From Thamnocephalis sphaerospora (Eukaryota > Zoopagomycota > Zoopagomycetes > Zoopagales > Sigmoideomycetaceae), in assembly GCA_003614735.1 (NCBI GenBank), contig KZ992584.1:1-28178 (forward strand): DNA of 28,178 nucleotides. Reading direction: 5' to 3'. Within the stretch, counting starts at the first letter, position 1. Each line of letters begins with the position of its first letter. Below the pieces are notes generated by a model, which was given only the letters and a program-made list of their open reading frames with translations, searched no databases and had not been told where the DNA came from. Positions 4,651-15,411 of this stretch are shown here, piece by piece. A program made the translations under genes and the position numbers.

Positions 4651-6548
4651 CTAGCCGGCCTGCGGCTTGGGACGATGCGTGTCGACCGCCTCGATGTTTA
4701 CGCGGAAGCGGGTCTCCTCGCAGCCGTATGCCTTGGGCGCTAGCCGGATCACCGTATGCAGCGGCACGCGAATGTACGGCAGCTCGTCGCGCGGCAGGTT
4801 CATGAAATAGGCGTAGATGCATCGAAGGATGGCCTGGTGGCCGATAATGAGAATGTTGTGCTGACGCTCCAGCTCCATCATGACCGGCTCTAGGCGTAGC
4901 ACCACGTCCCGATAAGACTGTCACGCAGTCCAGCGTAAGCAGCAGGTCGACATGCAACGCGCAAAGAGCACCCACCTCGCCGCCGCGGTAGCGGTAGTTG
5001 AACTTGTCGTCGTCCCGGTTAGCGTAGTCTTCCGGGTATTTTTCCTGCACGACCGTCGTACGCGAGAGATGCAACAACATGCCGGAGAGAGGTTAGTTTA
5101 TGCGACAAGCAGTCTCGCCAGCCTGTCCGCGCCATCACTTGCCGCAATTTCCTCATAGGTCAGACCGTCGCACACGCCTGCGTTCAGCTCGTCCAGCGCC
5201 TTCCACTGTAGCTTGGGGTAGGGTAGCTTGGAGGCGGTCTGGATGGTACGTCTCATTGTCGAGGTCCATACCTGGGACGCGCACACGCACGTGGTGCAAA
5301 GTAGCGACACAGCCGCGGGGTCAGCGACCGTTCATGCCGGGTCATCTCACCGCCTTTGGCCGCGCACGCCGCCTTACCGTCAGATTCTCCGAGCCGAGAT
5401 TGTCCTTGATCAGCTGGGGCAGAGCGTTGGCGTACTGCTCGCCGCGCGGACTCAGCAGCGAGTCGCCGCCAATCTTGCCCTCCACGTTGAACATACTTTC
5501 GCCGTGACGGCTGAAGAAGATGCAGCGGCGTGATACATGCAGGTTCATCAGGTAATAGACCACCCGGCTCTGCAGATAGCCGCGAATCAGATTGACGACC
5601 ACCTGGCTGCGCACGTTCACCAGGCGAATGTAGGTGAGGTCGCGTTCCTGCACTGGCTCATAGCTGCTTTCGTAATGGCGGATGCGCTCGCGAAAGTCGC
5701 GCGCGGCCGCCTCCGGATCCACACCAGCATAGTCGGGCGACTGCAGCTTGACGGCACGAATGTTTTCCATGACCACCTCTTCGTCCTCGCACACCGATTC
5801 GATAAACATGACCTGCAGCTCTTCGGTGGCCTCCTCCACTTCCAGGCTATCGGCATGCATCGTCGACGCAGAGATCGGATTGCCCGAAGCGTCGCAAGCG
5901 GCAGCATCGTTGCCATTGCTGATCAGCCCGTTGAGCGAGATCATGCGGGACCGCCGACGCGCGCGCGCCTGATAGGTGCGGCAGCGTTCCAGAATCCAGC
6001 GACGGCGCTCCTGGGTGCTGTTGGTCGCGTCATAGATGGCCACCGCCGTGCCCTCCTCGTTGGTGATCCAGTGCAGCAAATCGTCCATGGCCGCAGATGC
6101 CGCCTCCTGTCGCTTGCGCTTTCCCTCGGGATTCTCCGGGTCGAAAAAGTTGTGTAGCTGGTGGGCACCGCATTGCTCCCGCCGATACTCGCCTACGTTG
6201 AACACGCGAGTGTTCACGCCCACCCATTGCAGATAGCGTCCGACTATGCGTGTAACGCATGAGCTGGACAGCAACAGAATGCAGCACGGTGGCGCTCACG
6301 CACCTTTCTGCGCAATAAAGGTCTTGCCGCGAGCCGGCAAACCGACCATCTACGCGAGCCGTCCAGCATGAGCCAGCCTGCACGTCATCCGGACATTAAG
6401 CTCGCCACTTACCACGCAGACAATCTTGACATTGGCTACGTGTCACAGCACGCGCACAGTGACGGCGACAGGACGCGCATGAGCCAGACTGCGCAGGCAG
6501 ACCAACCCCCAGCGGCACACACTTACTGGCAGCAATGGCAGGCAACAT
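4651..6548 (-). CDS. PFKFB: Bifunctional 6-phosphofructo-2-kinase/fructose-2,6-bisphosphatase
   Basis: Seven exons (6548-6527, 6435-6413, 6349-6304, 6243-5378, 5271-5143, 5044-4976, 4917-4651) give 473 residues. The enzyme makes and breaks fructose 2,6-bisphosphate, the cytosolic switch between glycolysis and gluconeogenesis. The kinase half has the P-loop GLPARGKT at 18-25, then FNVGEYRRE and [10 protein letters not shown]. The phosphatase half has RHGES with catalytic His277, Glu347 in [11 protein letters not shown] and His412 in GHQAILRC, so both activities look intact. Compared with animal enzymes there is an insert of about 40 Ser/Asn/acidic residues after ILERC (about 118-155), and the N-terminus is very short. 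The start rests on two tiny 5' exons joined by a GTAAGT donor that restores [15 protein letters not shown]; an upstream coding exon is possible. The intron 5045-5142 is of GC-AG type. Confidence 0.93.
5045..5142 (-). other. GC-AG intron in PFKFB
   Basis: The donor reads GCG|GCAAGT and the acceptor GTGCAG|GAA. Splicing here joins LTYEEIA to [11 protein letters not shown], the conserved phosphatase sequence. No GT donor nearby keeps the frame. GC-AG introns with strong GCAAGT donors are a known minor class of U2 introns. Confidence 0.8.
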
Positions 6549-9877: not shown

Positions 9878-12800
9878 CTACACGCGCGCCTGCCATGAGC
9901 GCCAAATACGCCGCACTGCATCCACCTCGCTGGTCGCCTCCTGTCGGTCCGTGGCGGCTGGCGCATCACCAAGAGAGCAGCGTCCCAGCAGGGTTTGTAG
10001 ATAGACAAAGTCACCTTGATCTGCCACCGTCAGCTCCTTGCCGTGCTGCATCACCAACTGGTGACCGCGCGACTGCTGCTCAAACTCCTTGGCCACTTCC
10101 TCCGCTCGCAAGACAATCTGACGAGAAAACACCGCGATGAGCCAAGATGAAGCTGTAGACTGGCCGATACACCACCCACCTCGGTCGGTACACCCGCCAT
10201 ATTGGCCACGTGCATGCCATAACTCTACCAATTGCACGTGTCGTTAGTTTTCTGCCGCCGCAGCCATAGTCTGCCCGCCCGCCCGCCCGCCCGACGTTAC
10301 CTTTGGACAGGCGCCATCGGTAAGTTTGTACAAAAACGTAACCTCCTTGCTGCAAACGCAAAAAAGTACACAAATGAGCATCCGGCCTCTGCGCACAAGT
10401 AGCCAAAGCACGTGCGAGACGTACCGGTCCTCGTCAACGTAGCACGACATGTGCATCAGTCGGATGTTGCGGTCTGCCTCCATCTCTTCCGTGAGTAGGC
10501 CGTAGTGCGTGGAGAACAGCCCAAGGCACCCGACATAGGTGGCCAGGTAGTGAAGCACCGAGTAGGCAATGGCATAGCTGTGTGCAGACGAGCCGTTGAC
10601 TGCTGAGTATCGCCGGAATGTGCAACGCATGGCCGCCGCTTGTGCACACATACCCGTCGAATGTGCTGGTACCACGGCCAAGCTCGTCCAGAATCACCAG
10701 CGAGCGTGGCGTTGCCTCGTGCAGAATCTTGGACGTTTCACTCAGCTCGACCATAAAGGTCGACTGTCCGGCCATGATGTTGTCGTTTGCGCCTTGAATT
10801 TGGCGTTACACGGGTTAAGCGGGCTCGACATGCAAATCACATGTACACGACTCACCGATCCGCGTAAAGATACGGTCAACGGCAGTGAGACGGCATCGAC
10901 GCGCTGGCACATAGCAGCCGAGCTGTGCCATAATAATGGCAATGCATGTCTGTGCGCAATTACGCAAACGTCAGTGCCACCTGCAGATGCGCGCTCGCAC
11001 GTATGCGTCGCACCTGACGGAGCAGCGTGGACTTGCCGCCCATATTCTGCAGATGCCCGGTGCGAGAGACGGGTTAGCGCCTGCGGTAGACATCACCACA
11101 GAATGTCTACTGTTTCACTCACCGGACCAGTTAGCAGGATCATGCGCGCCTGGTCGTTACCGAGCATCGTGTCATTCGGGATGAAATCGGCGGCAATGCT
11201 GGATACGGGCTCGCGGTTAATAAAGCCCGGCCTTTCAGCGGACGCCGCCAGCAGAGCATACCCTGGAATAACACATGGATGGCGAAGCTCCTCCAGCTCC
11301 AGCAGCGACGGACCTTCTTCGACAAACTCGGGTCGGCAGCATGGTTCGCCGATGGTCGTTGCACACACCGCCAGACCGAGCAGGCAGTCCAGCTCGGCAA
11401 ACACATACACAGCGCGCACCCAGAGGTCGTAGTACTCGTCAAACTTGGCGTAGACGCGCTGCTGAATGTCCTTGAGAACGGGTACACGACCACGCGGCAA
11501 GCAAAGTCAAGGGCGATATGATGAGGTAGCGTAGCACGCAGTCAACCATGCCGCCGCACCAAAGGATATAATTCCGAATCTCCTTGGTCTCCTCAAACTC
11601 GCGCACGAGACTGCGCAATGTTGGGCTCCAGTAGCGGTTGACCACCTGTGGGTGTCCATAGTGTGTTAGCGGCACTGGCACATGTGCCCAGCAGGCTGCA
11701 GCTGTGCACCTACTTTGGTCTGTGAAAGACGCATAAAGTTGGTTGGAACCTTGATATTCTTGGGCACCTCGAGCTGATAAACCTCCTTGCCAATGTCGCG
11801 GTAGATAATCTTGGAGCTTCTGTCGACAGCACACAGCAAATGTCAGTGCACGGATTAACACGCCAGCGCATGATACTGTGCGCACAACGTACTTGAGTTC
11901 GCGGCGCTGCTCTTCCAGGTAGCTTTGGAAGCGTTCCTGTATGTCGCGCGCGCGCTCTTCAATGTCATCATAGTCCTTTTCAACACCGGGGAACGGAATA
12001 ACGCTTCCTTCGCGCTCAGCAATGGTCCGATCAAAAGCAGTACTGAAGTGCTCCAGAGGCTCCTGAAGATCCGGAAAGCGTGCACACAGCGCAGCAATGC
12101 GCGGCATGCTCTTGTTCTCGCACGTTTCCTTTAGTTCTGCAGCAAGTTTCTGTGCAGATGGGTCAGCACCGATGGTAGATCAGCAACGACTCGCTGTGCT
12201 CATCTACATACACTCAGCGCTGTAAAGGCGTCCAGCAGACGGAAGAGGTCCTTTAGCCGGCATGTTCCAGCGTGCACACGACTGACCATGCGCTCCAGGT
12301 CCGGAAGACGCGTCATCGCCTTTTGCGTCGACCCTTGCAGGGACATGTCGCTGTTGAGCTCGTCAACTGCATCAAGTCGCGCGTTGATGGCCTTAGAGCA
12401 ACGGAGCGGATGGCACACCCAGCGCTTGAACATCCGCTTGCCAAACGGCGTGACGCACTTGTTCAGCAGTCGGAAGAGCGTGCCTTCGTCGCCGCCGTCA
12501 AAGTTGTTTTCGAAAATTTCCAGATTCTTGAGCGTCTGGCCGTCAATCATCAGGCAAGTCGAGCGGCGCACCGGGTCATAGTACTGGAAGTTTTTAAGCG
12601 ACAAAAGCTCTCTATCCAAGCGTAGCTATTCGATACAGCGTTAGCCGCCACTACCCGCACGCTGTACAAGGTGCATCATACGCACCGCCCTTAGGTACCA
12701 GATTAGACCTGCAGCAGATCAACACACGGTAGTAACAACTGGAATTAGAACATGCACGCGCTGGAACGCAAACGCACGCCCATCTCTTACCGCCAGTTGC

Positions 12801-15411
12801 CGAAAGCATAAGCGGCTTTTCCTTGGCATCGCGCAGCGCAGTCGGCCACACATCCTCTCCACGGCTGTCGCCAAAGTAGCCAGCACCGTTGATTTCAAAC
12901 GTTGTTGTATCTGCATCCCAAAATTCGCGCCCAGACACGAGTCCATTCCTGGTTCGGTGCAGCGCATCCAGCATATACACCGATATGATTAGCTGGGCTG
13001 CACGGTAAGAAATGCTTGCAGCTATACACACCAAATAGTACTATGCAGCGTGTTCTTCAGGACGCGCATTGTCTCCTTGGAGATGTGTCCCTTTTCGTAA
13101 ATTACTTCCTTGGGCTGGATTTGCGCCAGCAACGTTTCCAAACGGCTGCGGTCCGGCTCATCGACAAACTGACACAAGTTGAACTCGGCGCAGGACGCGT
13201 CGACGAACGCAATGCCAATCGTCGGCTGCGCGCGCACCTCAGGGCCAACTTGTTCCTACAAGTTGGTCACGACCAGCCGCATGAGCACAACACCTAGTAT
13301 GCTTACTCGGCAACTACCAACCTTGATGCATAAGCAATACGTAGCCATGTCGTTGGTCAGCAGACCCGCATCCACCAGCGTACCGCCAGTAAGCACGCTG
13401 GTAAGCTCGCGACGAATGAGCTTTTCCGCCTGCAATCACGTTTCCGCAGCGCGTCGTCAGTACCAGCACGCAATGTGATGCAAAACAAAGGTATTGCACA
13501 TGTACCTTGCCATCCTTGCTGGCCTTTTCGCGCAGCGATTTTCCAATGGCCGTCTCCAGCTGCTCAACCTTTGCCACTTTGTGCCTGCAGCAGGACAGCG
13601 TAGAAATTAGCAGACAGCTAGGCGGCACTGCCAATGCAAGCAGGTATTACCCTTTGGCAATAAACTTGCCGGCCCACATGTTGAACGACAGCTCGGGCAC
13701 ACCAACCATGCGCATGTTGACCCGATCCGTCATCTTGAGATCAAAGTCACGGTGCCCAACGTCGGCATCGTTTTCATACAGCTCTATCCACGCAGCGCGG
13801 CGAGCCCGTCAGACACCCGCTGCACTCCAGGCGACCGGCACAACATCGTGGCTCACCGTAGAACTTGCCCTTCTTGAAGAACACGACAGTGTCAAAGAAT
13901 TTGCACTTGATCTCCCAGAACTGTCGCTCAAACGGCGTAAACTTGTTCCACGCAGACTTGGGAATAAACAGTGTACGCGGGTTGTAATCAGGATGGCCTA
14001 ATGCAAATGCGACAGCCGTCAGCATTGGAAGCCACACGCGCTGGCTGGTAGGCAACATACCGACTGGATTGCCGTCGGCATCGCACACGTCCACCAGCCA
14101 CTTGTAGCGATCCGGGTGTCTTGAGCGTTCGCCCTACCAGTCATCCATTAATCAATCGAATTGCAAAGTACGCGTACAGCAGCCTTTCACGCACCGTCCC
14201 AGTGGAAGCTTGCGAGGTTTGTTCCTTCGCTGGCGTAGCAGGACTGCGGAAGCTTTCACCACGCTTTGCCTGTGAAGACGACGCAAACACCTGTGTACCA
14301 TAGCACGCTGTCGTCAACACCAGTGCAGCGCAACAGTAATATCCTATGCCAGAAGCATACCTTGAGTCGGTCCAGCGAAGATGATATTTTTGAAGTAGGA
14401 CTACGGATCTGAGTAATACCCAAAGAAGAGGAGGATGCTGGCGAGATGACCACACAAAATGCTCAAACTTTAGGCATCATCGCACAAAACAAACAGTGCA
14501 TTATCGCGCGCCTTACCGTTATCCCGCGATGCGCGTGTCGTGCTGGACTGCTTTCCTTTGCGTGCTGGCTTTTCCACCTCGTCATCATCAACATCCATTA
14601 CTATGCAATAGTGAGCATGAGCAGCATATCGATCCGCCCGACGTCCGGCATCCCCTACCATCCTCAAATTCGGCCTCATCCACATCCTTTTCATCGCCCG
14701 ACATCTTGTACTCGTCATCGTCGTCATCGTCATTGCCGTCGTCGTCCCGGCTATCTGTTATGCTGCGTCGTGTAGTCGCATCGTGCCGCTTGCTTTTGCT
14801 CGTCTCGTCGTCATCTGACTCCAGATAACGAATACGCTTCTTCTGGCGCAGCTAGCATATGCCAGCACTCAGCCCAGTGAGGACACGCACACACGCACAC
14901 ACATACACACATTGCTTCCACTTACGCCACGTGCGGGTCTGATAGCCTCATCATCGATATCGTCGCTGTCCACTAGCGCTGGTGCCGGCTGGGAGTCCGG
15001 AAAATGCGTAGGAGAAGACATGATTGCGTCGCGTTCATATGGCGCGCTTGGCAGTGACGACGCACACGTCTGGTCTGCAGAATCCGACGACGCTTGCGAC
15101 TGCGAAGACTGCAAAGACCCGGTGGTGTCGCGGATTCCGCCATTTGCGCGCGCCACCGGAGGCGACGAGGATTTGGCTGATAGTGCCTGGTCATTAGGCG
15201 CCGACGAAAGCGCGGCATCCGCTGCCTGCGAAGGAGTCGTCGGCGGAGCCGTGAAGAACGAGAACAGCGTCGTCTGTTTGGACGGCGTGCCAAGTGAATT
15301 GCCGCTCTTGTTGCCCTGGCGCCCCGGCGTCTGCGCTATACGCTGCTGCCGACGCTCAAGAGCGCGGCGCTTGTTCTCTTCCATACGCGCGCGCTGTTCC
15401 GGGCTAAGCAT
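9878..15411 (-). CDS. MSH6: DNA mismatch repair protein MSH6 (MutS-alpha subunit)
   Basis: A hand-built model of 26 exons encodes 1258 residues with all phases consistent, close to yeast and human MSH6. The protein pairs with MSH2 in the nucleus to recognise base mismatches and small loops. The start at 15411 is the first Met of a charged N-terminus and precedes a PCNA-binding PIP box, QTTLFSFF at 46-53. A long Ser/acidic region follows. The mismatch-reading motif GKFYELY has the F-x-E residues F382 and E384. Connector, lever and clamp segments match the family. The ATPase has Walker A GPNMGGKST (1007-1015), split by an intron between Pro and Asn, then FFVEL-like [12 protein letters not shown], Walker [17 protein letters not shown] and FSTHYGLL. 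Odd features: a 23-nt micro-exon (12708-12686), one AT-AC intron (11482-11569) and a G-run-rich intron (10225-10300). The stop is at 9878-9880. Small uncertainty remains at the second exon's acceptor (14851 or 14842). Confidence 0.95.
10225..10300 (-). other. MSH6 intron with five GGG runs beside the donor
   Basis: The 76-nt intron (GTAACG...GGTAG) joins DGACPK to SYGMHVAN. Nine nucleotides after the donor begin five GGG runs separated by single C bases (10273-10293 on the plus strand as GCCC units). This is a perfect short-loop G-quadruplex motif on the transcript strand. Confidence 0.75.
11482..11569 (-). other. Putative U12-type AT-AC intron in MSH6
   Basis: Read on the minus strand, the exon ends GAGATTCGGAATT and the intron opens ATATCCTTT, identical to the U12 donor consensus. 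CCCTTGACT (8 of 10 to the branch consensus TTCCTTRACY) lies before the end, and the intron closes GTGTAC|CC, the first AC or AG after the branch point. Length is 88 nt and the branch-to-end distance is about 25 nt, rather long. Splicing gives [19 protein letters not shown], which aligns without gaps to the family; GT-AG alternatives add or lose conserved residues. Confidence 0.75.
12686..12708 (-). other. 23-nt micro-exon of MSH6
   Basis: The sequence between a GCTGCAG acceptor and a GTGCGTAT donor encodes LIWYLRA with a split Gly codon. It is needed to join SATGG to [10 protein letters not shown], the conserved lever region. The flanking introns are 82 and 60 nt. Confidence 0.85.
14883..14911. 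repeat. CA/CG microsatellite in MSH6 first intron
   Basis: An alternating ACACGCACACACGCACAC tract lies just downstream of the first MSH6 donor, inside the 74-nt intron (14852-14925). Confidence 0.85.

Follow-up and report, generated by a model that had tools for sequence, protein, structure and literature searches.

A predicted U12-type AT-AC intron in the MSH6 gene of the mycoparasitic fungus Thamnocephalis sphaerospora and a likely set of sibling introns

The U12-type introns of human and plants carry a donor of the form RTATCCTT and a branch site close to TTCCTTRACY, in which human introns favour A as the branch purine, while the AT-AC introns that depend on U2 begin with an ATAAGT-like donor. 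U12 introns are defined by their donor and branch sequences, and the optimum distance from branch to acceptor is given as 11-13 nt (review PMC3584512). Among the early-diverging fungi, 249 minor introns have been reported in Basidiobolus meristosporus (Zoopagomycota) and 205 in Rhizophagus irregularis, a species for which the full set of four minor snRNAs is reported as well (Larue and Roy 2023, PMC10639083). The main text of that study (supplements aside; its data set may include the species) does not mention Thamnocephalis, Syncephalis, Piptocephalis or Zoopagales, and among the matches listed in the open-licence literature there was no report of a minor-spliceosome system in Zoopagales. A first-pass annotation of the DNA analysed here had proposed such an intron in MSH6 and had presented U12 introns as a rarity in fungi, which has to be qualified in view of the Basidiobolus count, as they are not unprecedented in this fungal branch (PMC10639083). 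Minor introns are thus already known from the related Basidiobolus; the MSH6 case adds Thamnocephalis sphaerospora as another early-diverging fungus with probable U12-type introns, and the newer part is the apparent size of its minor-intron set and the apparently altered spacing within it.

T. sphaerospora is a mycoparasitic zoopagomycete whose genome was obtained by single-cell co-assembly of sorted cells (PMC6784888); the term 'RNA-seq' does not occur in the main text of that paper. The assembly comprises 14.46 Mb in 594 contigs, and the window, i.e., the whole stretch of DNA analysed, is 28,178 bases long. Its features at the MSH6 locus are as follows.

9878..15411, minus strand: MSH6 gene from its start ATG to the stop codon, with the N-terminal exons delimited by eye
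11482..11569, minus strand: predicted U12-type AT-AC intron, 88 nt, phase 1 (motifs, MSH6 alignment, profile test)
11561..11569, minus strand: 5' splice site ATATCCTTT, U12 consensus donor (among 87 genome-wide strict matches)
11506..11512, minus strand: branch motif CCTTGAC, whose branch A (11507) is 25 nt away from the last base of the intron
11482..11483, minus strand: 3' splice site AC (sequence and profile test)
11459..11546, minus strand: GT-AG intron GTTGAC...CAGCAG of NCBI model P0001, judged a mis-annotation

Read on the minus strand from 11569 to 11482, with slashes at the exon junctions, the site is CGGAATT/ATATCCTTT...CGCCCTTGACTTT...GTCGTGTAC/CCGTTCTCAAGGAC. The donor at 11569-11561 agrees with RTATCCTT directly at the exon junction and occurs a single time in the window, both strands counted; the branch element GCCCTTGACT agrees with the consensus at 8 of 10 positions and exactly in its core; and the two ends form a matched AT-AC pair. 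In 500 windows whose single bases had been shuffled, the strict donor/branch pair occurred 4 times. Excision of 11569-11482 gives R-N-S-V-L-K-D and leaves the MSH6 alignment ungapped, human MSH6 having SLKD at this site in the PDB alignment. We modelled the conserved MSH6 core with 19 introns, namely the AT-AC intron of 88 nt and 18 GT-AG introns of 60-83 nt; one further GT-AG stretch (21 residues), which the NCBI model splices out, was retained in the core model. The first-pass annotation had put the other introns of the gene at 24; our model covers the conserved core, and the N-terminal introns were read by eye.

The boundaries were scored against a profile of 118 homologues (P0003 to P0120) which holds no splice-site information and from which the Thamnocephalis and Syncephalis proteins were excluded. 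Excisions of 30-149 nt from 100 successive start positions around the site yielded 4041 distinct candidate peptides, stop-free over their first 110 residues, and among these the AT-AC excision ranked first with 138.5 bits. The margin over excisions of equal length with shifted boundaries is small (137.9 and 137.3 bits), which speaks against reading the exact base from the profile; homology therefore sets the length and the rough place of the intron, and the donor motif sets the exact base.

The existing NCBI annotation places an ordinary U2-type GT-AG intron here (11546-11459), and the first-pass annotation had named a second GT-AG alternative (11546-11471). Neither disrupts the reading frame, the protein length is the same under the NCBI model, and its acceptor CAGCAG scores a normal 5.48, within the range of the 18 other acceptors of the gene (2.22-6.55). 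Its donor GTTGAC, however, scores -1.84, below every one of the 18 GT donors of MSH6 (1.89 to 8.28), and in the profile test the NCBI excision came 237th of 4041 (125.2 bits) and 11546-11471, the best of all GT-AG excisions, 182nd (126.2 bits). NCBI splicing yields YILWCGGM, which is unlike all 14 fungal relatives aligned with residues at the site (e.g., KSNILKSIQGRLYRKF), whereas AT-AC splicing yields SVLKDIQQ. On these ranks and the weak donor we rejected the GT-AG readings of the site, and a U2-type GT-AG intron appears very improbable. The 88-nt AT-AC intron proposed earlier is thus borne out by its motifs, the ungapped alignment and its first rank in the profile, and we predict, with a probability of about 0.95, that 11569-11482 is a U12-type (minor) intron of MSH6. 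The annotated MSH6 protein of Syncephalis fuscata (P0002) has a gap of six residues precisely where the intron lies (EETMELH------IQKRVYNKF), a hint that an AT-AC intron has been mis-annotated in that species too.

In the genome of T. sphaerospora as a whole, two snRNA genes of the minor spliceosome scored above their Rfam cut-offs.

Contig C89, L007:1450-1601, plus strand: U11 snRNA gene (58.9 bits, Rfam cut-off 39)
Contig C139, L001:1501-1656, minus strand: U6atac snRNA gene (38.0 bits, Rfam cut-off 33)

Each is a single locus. That of U11 shows a 5' AAAAGGG, an AUCAAGA loop and the Sm-like AAUUUUUC, and that of U6atac ends in six T, exceeds the length of the Rfam model by 30 nt and is distinct from the genome's own U6 (80.3 bits); neither cut-off was reached in any of 14 prokaryote genomes used as controls. 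A U11-48K-type zinc finger (CHHC) was also found above the Pfam cut-off (28.3 bits, and 25.5 bits in a second run), a level that this model also reached in 1 of the 14 control genomes. Its four PDB matches comprised two GTSF1 and two human U11-48K entries, with GTSF1 best and human U11-48K second, and none of the eight ORFs around the finger had a Pfam match above cut-off, nor did TRM13 appear among their matches. In a gene model read by eye, the first finger cysteine lies near residue 47 after the likely ATG and no CCCH finger precedes it, a placement which we take to be nearer to U11-48K than to TRMT13, and the gene is a likely candidate for U11-48K.

Searches of the whole assembly for U12 (RF00007) gave nothing at E 0.001 nor at E up to 10, and those for U4atac (RF00618) nothing at E up to 10. 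At the latter threshold the prokaryote controls gave chance matches in 7 of 14 (U12) and 11 of 14 (U4atac), none above cut-off, and no control gave a match to U12 at E 0.001 or to CENATAC; as the controls are prokaryotes only, the non-detection of U12 and U4atac settles neither absence nor presence. The pattern GAGYAAGGAAAATAACGA, modelled on U12, matched 20 loci at up to 3 mismatches, while the control had 25 matches, and no U12 was recognised by cmscan in those 20; the pattern AAGGAA...AATTTTT matched twice, against 10 times in the control. At one of these two sites, C501:5954-6027 (+), AAGGAAA is followed by two stems and then by a Sm-like AATTTTT; the fold is unremarkable (z -1.1; 27 of 200 shuffles fold equally well), and this stretch is a weak lead, possibly a piece of a U12 snRNA. 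For U4atac, a pattern complementary to the organism's own U6atac, flawed in its design, matched the U6atac antisense alone. CENATAC (PF14968) had no match in the genome and SCNM1 (PF15803) five weak ones, none above cut-off. The earlier expectation that all four minor snRNAs are kept therefore holds for U11 and U6atac, with U12 and U4atac undetected at E up to 10.

The strict pattern, TATCCTT with CCTTRAC 15-75 nt downstream of it, has 87 matches genome-wide, while its reversal, which served as control, has 1. Identical matches were noticed by eye on three contig pairs (C147/C441, C408/C532, C425/C500), which suggests duplicated or redundant stretches of the assembly. Among 72 distinct matches taken for closer analysis, TATCCTT is preceded by A in 36, by G in 34, by C in 2 and by T in none, so that intron position 1 is a purine in 70 of 72, where about half would be expected by chance; this base is absent from the search pattern, and its purine excess is therefore an independent check. 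Exons were joined in silico at 20 of the 70 purine-start loci and 19 were submitted to Pfam (L034 omitted). A match at E up to 0.01 was obtained for 15 of the 19 (9/9 in a first set, 6/10 in a second), although these loci were picked non-randomly, partly as recognisable ones, and the fraction is no estimate for the whole set. All but one of the 15 (L044) exceed the curated Pfam cut-off, 14 of the 19 in total, and by our own count all 15 matches extend across the junction; the domains include Gar1, ZPR1, HECT, CBM48, NUC153 and OB_NTP_bind, and furthermore IBN_N, syntaxin-6 N, GOST, GCP N and EAP30. The spliced L018, L029, L060 and L075 had no Pfam match. Judged from these signals, about 80 more introns of the genome are likely of U12 type. 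The order of phases among 29 loci scored by codon usage (14 in phase 1, 9 in phase 2, 6 in phase 0) is the one reported for minor introns, 1 > 2 > 0 (PMC10639083).

These data bear on two further explanations of the MSH6 intron. Introns with AT-AC ends also occur outside the U12 class (review PMC3584512), and the major spliceosome could remove this one as a U2-dependent AT-AC intron. Nevertheless, the donor and the branch bear U12 motifs in place of a U2-like ATAAGT donor, U11 and U6atac are encoded in the genome, and the combination of these two signals is found at 87 sites, with 34 of the 70 purine-start cases beginning with G; we regard a U2-dependent origin as exceedingly improbable. Equally hard to credit is an artefact in which the host fungus is the source of the U11 and U6atac contigs or of the motif matches and the MSH6 match arose by chance. 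It finds a footing in the source of the genome, a co-assembly of sorted mycoparasite cells (PMC6784888), but the GC contents at the loci of U11, U6atac and the finger (55-58%) lie close to the mean of 70 other loci (55.7%) in this within-assembly comparison, the motif matches are scattered over many contigs, and the MSH6 intron sits in the window itself. The U12-type reading of that intron is thus supported by the boundaries that homology chose, by the U11 and U6atac genes and by some 80 likely siblings.

In its U12 donor, its CCTTRAC-type branch, its AC end and the company of U11 and U6atac, the MSH6 intron resembles the U12-type AT-AC introns of human and plants (PMC3584512). It departs from them in spacing, with 25 nt from the branch A to the last intron base in place of the optimum of 11-13 nt, which is typical of U12 introns and not strictly defining (PMC3584512). 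The first-pass annotation had given this distance correctly and had called it the main weak point of the case; here, however, such spacing is ordinary. Branch-to-acceptor distances in the 15 Pfam-supported siblings run from 12 to 33 nt, with a median of 24 (the minimum becomes 13 if L051, submitted with AG at 12, uses AC at 15). Choice of the acceptor by codon usage, a noisy procedure, gave 17-37 nt, again with a median of 24, for the 29 of 70 loci scoring above 15, a group to which MSH6 belongs and which shares loci with the Pfam set; 9 of these 29 picks had mixed AT-AG or GT-AC termini and were taken as wrong choices between close candidates. With no acceptor choice applied at all, 24 of the 70 loci lack both AC and AG in the interval 8-20 nt downstream of the branch A, and in 37 of the 70 the terminus that matches the intron's own type is missing from that interval. 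In the A-type introns, AC forms no sharp peak at any distance from the branch A, so that the exact acceptors are provisional. Among the 34 G-type introns, AG is rare at 8-15 nt from the branch A, with 4 cases and none at 8-11, as if acceptors nearer than about 12 nt were avoided. Given the median of the siblings and the many loci with no near AC or AG, we read the 25 nt as a property of the species; the long spacing looks like a species trait, not a defect of the MSH6 intron. Also unlike human, 62 of the 70 loci carry G as the branch purine. We lean, by a modest degree, towards the wider proposal that T. sphaerospora keeps a sizeable minor-intron set with an altered geometry, i.e., a spacing of about 24 nt and a branch that is mostly CCTTGAC, the figure of about 80 introns being probably a lower bound, as it comes from a strict pattern.

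For the splicing of the MSH6 intron we infer a route in which genes for U12 and U4atac take part and the order of steps follows the known minor-spliceosome pathway; what is observed are the signals of the intron, boundaries that fit protein homology, the U11 and U6atac genes, the U11-48K-like finger and the many sibling introns. U11 with U11-48K would recognise ATATCCTTT and U12 would pair with the CCTTGAC branch site, upon which U4atac/U6atac.U5 would join and U6atac would displace U11 at the donor. The lariat would then form on the A of TTGAC, and the exons would be ligated after the AC, 25 nt downstream of the branch.

On sequence grounds, the present data document a minor-spliceosome system in a mycoparasite of the Zoopagales with a 14.5-Mb genome, and the MSH6 model P0001 illustrates that a deposited gene model can hide a U12-type intron. 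The long spacing makes the measuring of distance by the minor spliceosome testable by comparison between species. If the altered geometry is true, it predicts a changed step of 3' splice-site recognition and a compensating U12 snRNA in which a C faces the G of the branch site; many such introns would then be missed or mis-spliced in public gene models that follow the GT-AG rule. Elsewhere in the window, at about 5253-6395 on the minus strand, ORFs were noticed which by eye resemble a 6-phosphofructo-2-kinase/fructose-bisphosphatase gene.
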